Shown here: positions 57,907 through 60,808 of the stretch, piece after piece | Position numbering within the stretch: position 1 is the stretch's first letter | How the letters are laid out: each line of letters begins with the position of its first letter | Assembly: GCF_001485535.1 (NCBI RefSeq) | Contig: NZ_BCMZ01000001.1 | Location: 558,001-622,000, forward strand | DNA length: 64,000 nucleotides | Direction of reading: 5' to 3' | Origin: Halobacterium sp. CBA1132 | Lineage (GTDB): Archaea; Halobacteriota; Halobacteria; Halobacteriales; Halobacteriaceae | Notes under the pieces: model-generated | The model's database searches: none | What the model was told of the DNA's origin: nothing | The model's input: the letters and a program-made list of their open reading frames with translations, nothing else | Made by a program: the position numbers and the translations under genes

Positions 57907-58776
57907 CTAGCCGTCCGGACAGACGGCGAGCAAGCCGTCGGGGAACTGTGTGAGCGTCGGCGCGCCCTCCCCGAACGCGGTGTGGACGAACGCCTGCCAG
58001 AGCACGCGCTCGGCGTACGGCCGCGAGTCGAGGTCGACGCCGAGTTCCGCGGCGACCGCGTCCTCGTCGACGCTCGGTCCCGGTGCCACGTCCAGGGTCG
58101 GTGGCGCGTCGTCGAGGTCGACGCCGAACGACGGGAACAGCCGGTAGGTCGCGTCGATTGCGGGGTGGTAGAACGTCCGGTCGCCCGGATATCGGACGGA
58201 CAGCACGAGCGTCGCCGTCGCGCGCTCGCCGTCCGGGAGTTCGACCCGTCGCTCGCCGAGCGGGAGTTCGCGGCGCTGTCCGCGTTCGACGTGGTAGCGG
58301 TCGCCGTCGGCCACGACGACGGCTCCGCCGGCCTCGACGCGCTCAATTGTGACAGCTACTTGCTGGCGCTCCGCGAGTTCGGCTTCCGTCGAGTCGCCGC
58401 CGACTGTTCCCTCCACGACGACGGTCCGGCCGTCGTCGGCCGTCAGCGCGGGCGAGACTGCTTCGCCCTCGCTCGCCGGGTGGACGCGGTACGGCGTCGC
58501 GCACACGACATCCCACTTGCTGGCCGGGGGCGTGGAAACATCGAGTACCGAGCGCCAGTAGAAGACGCGGGCCTCCTCGCCGCAGGTGTAGGGGACCGAA
58601 TCCGGGAAGAACCCGCCGCCGAACCGCGTCGCCTCCAACTCCCGGTATTCGAGGATAGCTTCGAGGTAACGCACTCTTTGTCGGACTGGTGCGGCGCGCT
58701 CGCTCGCGCTTGCCAGTGTCCACTCGACGCCCTCGAAGTCGCGCACGGAGTCCATCACCGCGACGTACGCCGTCAA
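57907..58776 (-). CDS. Hypothetical acidic protein
   Basis: 289 aa, soluble, starting MTAYVAVMDSVRDFEGVEW. It contains EEARVFYWRSVLDVSTPPAS and a beta-rich C-terminal half (RRVELPDGERATATLVLSVR, DRTFYHPAIDATYRLFPSFG). No family recognised and no signal peptide. Monocistronic; convergent with the PurD-like gene. Confidence 0.7.
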   Translation of the reverse strand: MTAYVAVMDSVRDFEGVEWTLASASERAAPVRQRVRYLEAILEYRELEATRFGGGFFPDSVPYTCGEEARVFYWRSVLDVSTPPASKWDVVCATPYRVHPASEGEAVSPALTADDGRTVVVEGTVGGDSTEAELAERQQVAVTIERVEAGGAVVVADGDRYHVERGQRRELPLGERRVELPDGERATATLVLSVRYPGDRTFYHPAIDATYRLFPSFGVDLDDAPPTLDVAPGPSVDEDAVAAELGVDLDSRPYAERVLWQAFVHTAFGEGAPTLTQFPDGLLAVCPDG

Positions 58777-58857
58777 CTCGCAAAGCCCTGCGTCCGGAGA
58801 TGTTCGCCCCGAGACGCGCTAACTGCCGGCCGAACATGTCCGCGCACAATCCTTAGT

Positions 58858-58871
58858 TTAGGTGTGCCTAA
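58858..58871. promoter_or_regulatory. Iron-box-like operator (DtxR-type inverted repeat)
   Basis: TTAGGTGTGCCTAA: perfect TTAGG/CCTAA arms with a 4-base centre, the form recognised by DtxR/IdeR/SirR-family metal regulators. It overlaps the TATA-like AGTTTAGG (58855-58862) and ends 27 bases before the ATG at 58898, so binding would block transcription of the operon that follows. Confidence 0.6.
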
Positions 58872-58897
58872 TCACCCGGCGAGGTGTTCCAGTCGCG

Positions 58898-59848
58898 ATG
58901 GCAGACGTGACCCACGAGCCCGCCGGCACAGTCGCGGACGAACTCTTCGACAAGTACCTCCTCCCGAAAGCCGCGCTCGCCGTCATCCTCGCGGCGTCGC
59001 TGGTCGGCACCGCGCTGACTCTCGACCTCACGGGCCAGTGGTCGCCGCTTTTGGCGCTCGCGAAGTGGGGGTACTTCGTCGCGCTCGGCGTGCTGTTCGG
59101 CGGCCTGCTCTGGAAGCACGGCTTCGTCCGTCCCGGCGATGTCGACGCCGCCACCGACTACTGCGCGCAGATGTACCGGCGCTTCGACCGCATCGCCGCC
59201 GGCGCGCTCGCCGTGCTCGCCGTGACTGGCGTCGCGCTCCTCACCGTCGTCTACGCCGACGCCCCGCTCGGACTCCGCGTCGCGCTCGCCGTCGCCATCG
59301 GCGCCACCGTCTCCACGGGCGCTATCGACACGCTCCACGACGCCCCCGTTCCGGAGCGCTTCCGCACGGCTGCGGGCGTTCTCGCGCTCGCCGGTGCGAC
59401 GGTCACCGTCGCGCTGACTGCCATCACCGATGTCTCGCTCGCGGGCGGCGGCGCCGTCCCCGCCCTGTCTCGGGCGGTCCACTTGCTCGCGTTCGCGGCG
59501 TGGGTCGGCGGCGCCGTCTGGAACATCTTCGTCGCCGTCCCATCTGGTCAACTTCGGCCGACGCCACCCGTCGTTCGCGCCGCCGGCGAACAACTCGAAC
59601 GGTTCCGGTGGACGGTGCGCTTCGTCATCCCGACGCTCGTGCTCACCGGCGCCTACCAGTCCGTCGACGCGCTCGGCACCAGCCTCGCCACCTACGTCGG
59701 CACGGCCGTCGGCCTCGCAGTGGTCGCGAAACTCGCGCTCGTCGCCGTTCTGTTCGCCATCTTCCTCGCGTGCCCGATGTGGCGCGCGTGCTCGCCAATC
59801 GACGGCGTCTGCGACCTCGCGAAGATGGACGACGAGGTGGGCGACTGA
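58898..59848 (+). CDS. CopD-like polytopic membrane protein
   Basis: 316 aa, about eight helices. Motifs such as SPLLALAKWGYFVALGVLFG, YRRFDRIAAGALAVLAVTGV and RAVHLLAFAAWVGGAVWNIF (helix with conserved His) are those of the CopD/copper-resistance membrane domain. The C-terminal loop has several cysteines (LACPMWRACSPIDGVCDLAK), and another lies in DYCAQMY, which could bind a metal or redox group. First gene of an operon behind the iron-box; its stop overlaps the TusA-like start (TGATG). Transport or haem/copper handling is inferred only. Confidence 0.8.
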   Translation: MADVTHEPAGTVADELFDKYLLPKAALAVILAASLVGTALTLDLTGQWSPLLALAKWGYFVALGVLFGGLLWKHGFVRPGDVDAATDYCAQMYRRFDRIAAGALAVLAVTGVALLTVVYADAPLGLRVALAVAIGATVSTGAIDTLHDAPVPERFRTAAGVLALAGATVTVALTAITDVSLAGGGAVPALSRAVHLLAFAAWVGGAVWNIFVAVPSGQLRPTPPVVRAAGEQLERFRWTVRFVIPTLVLTGAYQSVDALGTSLATYVGTAVGLAVVAKLALVAVLFAIFLACPMWRACSPIDGVCDLAKMDDEVGD

Positions 59849-60129
59849 TGGCGGACCTCGACGTCCCCGCGACCGTACCCGACGCCGACCCCGACCGCAC
59901 CGTCGACAACCGGGGCCGCGGCTGCGCGAACGGCATCGTACGCGTGCAGCGCGCGCTCGAAGACCTCCCGCCGGGGGCGGTGCTGGAGATTCAGAGCACC
60001 GACCGCCGCGCGAAGACCGAGTACCCGAAACTCGCCGCCGAAACCCCGCACGAACTGCTCGCCGTGGTCGAGAGCCGGCGGCGCGTCCTCCGCAAACAGT
60101 ACACCACCTACCTCGAAATCCATGAGTGA
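59848..60129 (+). CDS. TusA/SirA-like small sulfur-carrier-type protein
   Basis: 93 aa. The alpha-beta fold is recognisable: VDNRGRGCANGIVRVQRALE, DLPPGAVLEIQSTDRRAKTE, ETPHELLAVVE. The conserved Cys is present (GRGCANG) but the CPxP motif of true TusA is changed to CANG. In the family the Cys carries persulfide sulfur or interacts with membrane partners. Genes before and after overlap it, so it belongs to this operon's function. Confidence 0.82.
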   Translation: MADLDVPATVPDADPDRTVDNRGRGCANGIVRVQRALEDLPPGAVLEIQSTDRRAKTEYPKLAAETPHELLAVVESRRRVLRKQYTTYLEIHE

Positions 60130-60808
60130 ACTCGTCGACCCGACACCGCCGTCGAGCGGCACCGCACGCACGAACTGGCAGCACCTCGCGGACGCCGACC
60201 CCATCGCTGTCCGGGACCCGCTCGCGGAACTCCTCGGCGTCGTCCCCGACGGCGACCCGCTAGTCGTCGGCTTCCCCGAAGTCGTGCTCGCCGCCGGCCA
60301 CGCCTGCCCCGCCGTCGCGGGCGCCTATCGCGCCACCCAACTCGCGCTCGACGACCTCTACCCCGACAGCCTCCCCGTGCGAAGCGACGTCGCCGTCGAA
60401 GTCGGCGGCGAACCCGACGACCACGGCCTCGGCGCGATGGCGAACGTCGTCAGCCACGTCACCGGCGCCGACCGCGAGACCGGATTCACCGGGTTCGGCG
60501 GCTACGGCGGCCGCGAGAACCTCCTGTCGTTCACGGACCTCGACGGCCCCGGACGCACGTTCGCGTTCCACCGCCTCGACACCGACGACAGCGTCCGCGT
60601 CTCGTTCGCGCCCGGTGAAATCGGGATGTCGCCGCCCGGCGAAAGCGGCGGCAGCGTCGGGGATGTAATTCCGAAACTGGTCGCCGGCGACGCCACCGAC
60701 GCCGAACGCGACCGCTTCCACGACCAGTGGCACGACCGCGTCCAGCGCGTTCTCGACGCGACCCCCGGCGAGGACAGTCCGTTCACGCTCTGCCACCCCG
60801 AGAACTGA
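60122..60808 (+). CDS. FmdE-like domain protein
   Basis: 228 aa. The FmdE motif appears as VLAAGHACPAVAGAYRATQL (H-x-C-P), followed by VEVGGEPDDHGLGAMANVVS with further His/Asp, then FAPGEIGMSPPGESGG. FmdE-type domains bind a metal through such Cys/His residues and occur outside formylmethanofuran dehydrogenase. Methanogenesis is absent here. Its start overlaps the TusA-like gene by eight bases. A metal-binding or chaperone role is inferred. Confidence 0.75.
   Translation: MSELVDPTPPSSGTARTNWQHLADADPIAVRDPLAELLGVVPDGDPLVVGFPEVVLAAGHACPAVAGAYRATQLALDDLYPDSLPVRSDVAVEVGGEPDDHGLGAMANVVSHVTGADRETGFTGFGGYGGRENLLSFTDLDGPGRTFAFHRLDTDDSVRVSFAPGEIGMSPPGESGGSVGDVIPKLVAGDATDAERDRFHDQWHDRVQRVLDATPGEDSPFTLCHPEN

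Follow-up and report, generated by a model that had tools for sequence, protein, structure and literature searches.

The window analysed here is a stretch of 64,000 nucleotides (contig positions 558001-622000) from the 3.0 Mb genome of Halobacterium sp. CBA1132, and contains three overlapping genes on the forward strand together with one divergent gene. The first gene, copD (58898-59848, + strand), encodes a CopD-like membrane protein of 316 aa with eight transmembrane segments, the second, tusA (59848-60129, + strand), a TusA-like protein whose start overlaps the end of copD in a TGATG, and the third, fmdE (60122-60808, + strand), an FmdE-domain protein with an 8-base overlap with tusA. Each product scored modestly above its Pfam cut-off (CopD, PF05425, 33.5 bits versus 32.1; TusA, PF01206, 37.1 bits versus 28.6; FmdE, PF02663, 25.9 bits versus 22.9), which bears out the domains named in the original prediction; a search of the three products against NCBIfam gave no match above cut-off. 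Upstream of copD, a TATA-like element CTTAGTTT (58852-58859, + strand, taken from the promoter listing) is overlapped by a 14-base palindrome, the DtxR-type box TTAGGTGTGCCTAA (58858-58871, strandless), whose last base is separated from the copD ATG by 26 bp. The original prediction had placed the box over the TATA region, the three genes and both overlaps exactly at these positions. It had not included a second palindrome of denitrification type, CGAACATGTCCG (58831-58842, + strand), located 67 bp before the copD ATG, or the conserved divergent gene c0 (57907-58755, - strand; 282 aa), which is preceded by a palindrome of the same type, CGAACATCTCCG (58795-58806, - strand; contig 616795-616806).

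Within a class sample of 391 genomes, 43 yielded a CopD match, 33 of them a strong one (50% identity or E below 1e-50, a split of our own choosing). In 33 of the 34 loci tusA comes after copD, and the one deviating locus is a cut contig; c0 was detected by tblastn in 34 of 39 neighbourhood loci. A third gene, fmdE, follows tusA in 11 of the haloarchaeal copD-tusA loci, has left a remnant in L132 and is missing from the other loci; one further genome carries tusA-fmdE on a cut contig. Since tusA is near-constant, c0 frequent and fmdE restricted to these loci, the trio is better described as a gene pair with a divergent partner and an optional fmdE: judging from the sequences, copD-tusA is the conserved unit and fmdE a lineage-specific add-on. 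The three-gene order originally proposed as the unit is kept in Halobacterium where fmdE is present, but fmdE occurs in just 11 of 32 copD-tusA loci. Regarding c0, no Pfam or NCBIfam family scored above cut-off, and its model (pLDDT 92, predicted to be beta-rich) yielded no close PDB fold and no useful match with Foldseek and VIA-align.

In the alignment of the copD products, residues H74, C89, H195, C292, C298 and C305 are invariant, and the tail carries the motif CPMWRACSPIDGVC. A motif of the type H195-x6-W-x-GG is typical of CopD, and this motif and the Pfam match constitute the likeness to the copper resistance protein D family. The differences from CopD are the score just over the cut-off, the conserved cysteine tail, the TusA-like partner and a promoter of denitrification type. 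The TusA-like protein shares with the sulfur carrier TusA the family match and a single conserved cysteine, the invariant C26 within DNRGRGCANG. The hallmark of the TusA family is the CPxP active-site motif, whereas CAxG stands in its place in all 19 sequences, and a membrane-protein partner accompanies the gene in every uncut locus examined. In the thiosulfate uptake system TsuA/TsuB (YeeE/YeeD), too, a TusA-like protein has a membrane partner with cysteines; this partner belongs to a family other than that of the copD product.

The structural model of the copD product (pLDDT 84.6) was superposed best on cytochrome bd (Z 15.5, rmsd 4.1, 250 aligned positions). The cytochrome bd subunits gave Z 15.5 to 13.4, with one row at 11.9, followed by subunit C of alternative complex III (Z about 12.5) and PsrC (Z 12.2), the next unrelated row being at 8.3; the matched folds are helical bundles, among which a Z value as high as about 13 may be unspecific. 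Foldseek alone gave no significant match for this model (best E 0.28). The modelled arrangement of two four-helix bundles, which may resemble that of cytochrome bd and PsrC, would fit a quinol-linked membrane subunit as a putative function.

A scan of named genomes yielded 35 loci, comprising 21 haloarchaeal, 11 Chloroflexi and 3 Deinococcota loci. A TusA-like match adjoins copD or is fused to it in all 14 bacterial loci, with a single open frame in three of the 11 Chloroflexi loci (L168, L169 and L171) and in Thermus. Of the 14 bacterial rows, 13 retain the three tail cysteines (L180, partly aligned there, and L177, unaligned there, were counted as placed) and all 14 the TusA-like cysteine; a DUF2249 gene follows copD/tusA in 8 of the 11 Chloroflexi loci. 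On plasmid 4 (370,865 bp) of Thermus thermophilus NAR1, the fusion is annotated as 'sulfurtransferase TusA family protein' and stands in the order ferredoxin, CopD-TusA fusion, SdhB-like protein, NAD(P)/FAD oxidoreductase (NDH-2), with the nitrate reductase operon adjoining. The record does not use the name nrcE, which was assigned to the fusion gene because strain, plasmid size and gene order agree. The nrcDEFN genes, described with this gene content in a review of the strain, encode the nitrate-specific NADH dehydrogenase of T. thermophilus, in which NrcD is a ferredoxin and NrcE a polytopic protein of the membrane, with NrcF and NrcN bound to its cytoplasmic C terminus; nrcE mutants grow more slowly on nitrate, and their membranes oxidise less NADH with nitrate (PMC7694296). 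NrcE is thus required for efficient electron transfer from NADH to nitrate.

When a 98.6% identical T. thermophilus fusion protein was compared with the window by BLASTP, the CopD part matched with 46% identity over 127 aa and the TusA part with 37% over 75 aa. With NrcE of NAR1 as query, the copD gene of haloarchaeal loci was matched at 31-48% identity; the match to the window spans NrcE residues 165-283, and those to several other loci span NrcE residues 18-283. The common features are the CopD-like membrane part, the CPLYRxCSPVKGVC tail and a TusA-like domain with DNRxxxCA, and the Thermus gene adjoins nar and nitrite reductase genes. By these sequence comparisons the copD and tusA products are homologues of the membrane part and of the C-terminal TusA-like domain of NrcE, respectively, with the difference that Thermus has one fused chain and the window two overlapping genes. 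FmdE, the divergent gene and the DtxR-type box are haloarchaeal additions with respect to nrcDEFN. No homologues of NrcD or NrcF were found near the 34 haloarchaeal stretches searched, and an NrcN-like NDH-2 lies nearby in five of the 34, all from Halobacterium and outside the copD operon; the pair is therefore called NrcE-like and not a member of the Nrc complex. In the present genome, an NDH-2-like gene, 30% identical to NrcN, lies just beyond the window (contig 622501-623670, or 64501-65670 in window numbering), 3.7 kb past the end of fmdE and in reverse orientation to it; such a gene occurs near the operon in Halobacterium loci only. In Thermus composti (L180:5992-7077), the NrcE-like fusion contains one in-frame TAG inside the cysteine-tail motif, and the T. 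thermophilus copies examined are open at this place.

The respiratory nature of NrcE argues against an import or haem device, and copD-tusA is probably a membrane module of denitrification that resembles NrcE but is split into two genes, and not an importer of iron or copper; certain lineages would have added an iron-type brake. A persulfide or sulfur relay, in which the CopD-like protein would import or release sulfur species and pass them to the TusA-like cysteine, so that Fe-S or Cu-S centres damaged or required during denitrification could be repaired or assembled, is considered rather unlikely. The TusA homology with its invariant C26, the three invariant tail cysteines and several genes nearby would suit such a relay, namely those for the Fe-S repair or carrier proteins RIC and SufB, for DsrE-like proteins and, directly upstream in the Chloroflexi locus L173, for an ApbC/NUBPL-type NTPase; the uniform replacement of CPxP by CAxG speaks against it, as does the role reported for NrcE in NADH oxidation rather than sulfur transfer (PMC7694296).

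The assignment of the NrcE-like pair to denitrification draws further on its promoter. The palindrome CGAAYATNTYCG is present exactly in 30 of 32 copD promoters and with one mismatch in the other two, starting 52-68 bp before the ATG, as compared with exact occurrence in 1.1% of random 80-bp windows. It is one substitution away from the semi-palindrome that drives the nor and nosZ promoters of Haloferax mediterranei. In that organism, CGAAYATDKTYG is reported ahead of nirK (at 79 nt), nor (66 nt) and the nos operon (69 nt), and the nor and nos promoters became less active when their copies were mutated (PMC10062603). The published consensus CGAAYATDKTYG itself has no exact match in the 32 copD promoters, 28 matches with one mismatch and four with two, at about the right position. 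Across the host genome, the denitrification-type element gave 27 strand-hits versus 4 for a control, and is located upstream of copD, c0, norB, the nos operon, a halocyanin/multicopper-oxidase operon and an HTH_10 gene (the multicopper oxidase and adjoining halocyanin were identified by eye, whereas the identities of NorB, NirK and NosZ were checked separately). Upstream of c0, the CGAACATCTCCG-type element is exact in 18 of 34 loci and has one mismatch in a further five (2.7% and 4.9%, respectively, in the null). NarO is no more than a candidate for the regulator; according to PMC10062603, it is absent from H. mediterranei.

Gene content points in the same direction. NirK was matched in 29 of the 33 genomes with strong copD (missing in four) versus 193 of the 358 others (p = 9e-5), and NosZ in 16 of the 33 (missing in 17) versus 98 of the 358 (p = 0.015), relatedness being ignored in both comparisons; within Halobacterium, NirK accompanies copD in seven of eight genomes and occurs in one of five without copD. 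A NosZ-specific role in the supply of the Cu-S cluster was dropped because the co-occurrence with NosZ is too weak. An association of fmdE with NosZ (9/10 versus 7/22, p = 0.006, among the copD genomes of the class sample with G155 excluded) was likewise not adopted, as it loses significance outside Halobacterium (2/3 versus 7/22, p = 0.53). Neighbours of haloarchaeal copD include DUF2249 repeats, HTH_10 regulators, RIC, CGCGG RiPP precursors and a COX1-like membrane protein, and elsewhere a metal-dependent regulator and a multicopper oxidase; the same kinds of neighbours are annotated on plasmids of Halomicrobium urmianum and Natrinema sp. DC36. In the host genome nirK itself is flanked by DUF2249-like and CGCGG genes. 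The nirK cluster (L181:8738-15997; contig 1571237-1578496) also contains a TIGR04053 radical SAM protein and a TIGR04347 pseudo-SAM protein beside the CGCGG RiPP precursor, and in Thermus TIGR04053 accompanies NirS or NirK together with the fusion.

The co-occurrence with NirK and the CopD family match would also be expected of an importer of copper or another metal that supplies NirK, halocyanins and oxidases in denitrification, and the surroundings of the Chloroflexi fusion L168 include a P1B ATPase of CPG type, of which a 50% identical relative occurs beside FmdE paralogues. Such an importer is nevertheless unlikely, given a CopD score barely over the cut-off, a T. thermophilus TF27 fusion close to the haem enzyme NirS and FeoAB, neighbourhood listings in which no CopC-like partner was recognised, and an NrcE phenotype of electron transfer (PMC7694296).

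The other promoter element, the iron-type box TTAGG-N4-CCTAA, occurs exactly at 19 places in the whole genome versus 2 for the reversed control pattern; within the window, matches with up to two mismatches are not enriched (2 seen versus 3.7 expected). Among the matches listed, translations of genes next to box copies were recognised by eye as FecCD-like permeases, ABC ATPases and iron-type ABC substrate-binding proteins. Because the box is shared with iron ABC transporter genes, it was assigned to a DtxR-like metal regulon. The host has three DtxR-family genes, one of which encodes a cysteine-rich tail and resembles the regulator near copD in other haloarchaea. The box is a real DtxR-type site family of this genome, with putative iron-dependent binding and repression. 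In the copD promoters it lies 31-41 bp before the ATG and is exact in 6, with one mismatch in 10 and with two in 2 of 32 copD-tusA loci (18/32 together; exact in 0.17% and with one mismatch in 0.27% of random 70-bp windows). At the remaining 14 loci at least three mismatches are present and the box is lost or degraded; the CTTAG of the TATA-like element is retained also in many loci devoid of the box. On this sequence evidence the box is lineage-specific, unlike the near-invariant upstream palindrome; the conservation originally envisaged holds in Halobacterium where fmdE is present and fails at the 14 loci.

An iron-starvation device for import, haem or siderophore handling would accord with a box common to iron ABC transporter genes and conserved in Halobacterium, yet the box decays where the denitrification element stays, no transport signature beyond CopD was recognised, and FmdE keeps two of four metal ligands; such a device is very unlikely. 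The import or haem function first suggested for the operon is consequently not supported as its main role, iron or copper import being outweighed by the denitrification element and the kinship with NrcE. A further idea, that one box serves both divergent genes, was dropped because c0 and copD are separated in three Halobacterium loci (L048:6919-8139, L049 and L052) by a gene encoding c14, a protein with many transmembrane segments and no Pfam match; a relative of c14 occurs near copD in L055. Distant CopD homologues (30-40% identity) also have an exact upstream box (L121:2526, L140:678, L141:3760, L142:4885 and L145:4006), and four of these five loci contain a DtxR-like regulator with a cysteine-rich tail.

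According to the preferred reading, in which an NrcE-like membrane module of denitrification is divided between copD and tusA, the eight-segment protein would work at the quinone pool, and its cysteine-rich cytosolic tail would bind the TusA-like protein, which may provide a docking or redox function towards a soluble donor or acceptor. The promoter elements, the conservation, the fusion and the homology to NrcE were observed directly, and the quinone contact, the shared cysteine site, the identity of the regulator and the direction of electron flow are inferred parts of the model. The three tail cysteines and the TusA-like cysteine may build one shared site. The operon would be turned on together with the nor, nir and nos genes via the CGAAYATNTYCG element, and in Halobacterium and some relatives a candidate DtxR-type repressor would add control by iron (or manganese) at the TATA region, with FmdE as a lineage-specific helper. 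A broader proposal, put forward tentatively and held to be possible but doubtful, is that CopD-TusA constitutes a previously unnamed, widely transferred respiratory module of haloarchaea, Chloroflexi and Deinococcota, in which the tail cysteines and the cysteine of the CPxP-less TusA would form a shared Fe-S, metal or persulfide site coupling cytosolic donors to the quinone pool. No paper treating CopD, TusA and denitrification together was found in the collection searched, and no description of the copD-tusA pair was noticed in the literature on FmdE/TusA, FmdE/P-type ATPases or haloarchaeal denitrification and sulfurtransferases. Three automatic family names, pointing to copper, sulfur and methanogenesis, would mask a pair of denitrification genes, for whose best-known relative a respiratory phenotype has been measured. 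Haloarchaeal denitrification would gain a new accessory gene, and a possible role is offered for a TusA-like protein devoid of the catalytic motif. The superposition of an iron-type operator on a denitrification promoter agrees with the repression of iron-uptake genes under denitrification reported for H. mediterranei (PMC11218638).

The metal site of FmdE proteins is described as His-x-His-x-Cys plus a second Cys, and Q2LQ23_SYNAS, treated in the same paper, likewise lacks two ligands (PMC2954224). Regarding the FmdE of the window, the likeness to the structures 2GLZ, 2GVI and 3D00 (PMC2954224) is confined to the GHxCP motif region, and two of the four known metal ligands of the N-terminal domain, H60 and C62, are kept; the first His is replaced by Ala in all 11 sequences, and the second Cys has no conserved counterpart. 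A phmmer search of FmdE against the PDB found nothing, and the FmdE profile reached only E = 2 with 2GLZ. The sulfur-carrier-like and metal-binding parts of the original prediction are accordingly upheld as family matches but weakened by the missing CPxP and the two lost ligands. A subfamily of FmdE paralogues (about 45% identity) adjoins a P1B ATPase, mostly on smaller replicons, the ATPase cluster being present in 30 of 31 loci. This association suggests a putative role of FmdE in metal handling. Among the heavy-metal P1B ATPases scanned beside these paralogues, 29 of 30 have CPG as the motif of the sixth transmembrane segment, and the cassette (L046, L047 and L057-L085) combines the CPG ATPase with an HTH regulator and, in many cases, a CxxC HMA chaperone. 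Many haloarchaeal genera have plasmids that bear near-identical copies of the cassette, and plasmids of Azospirillum, Paracoccus and Neisseria gave weaker matches to FmdE.
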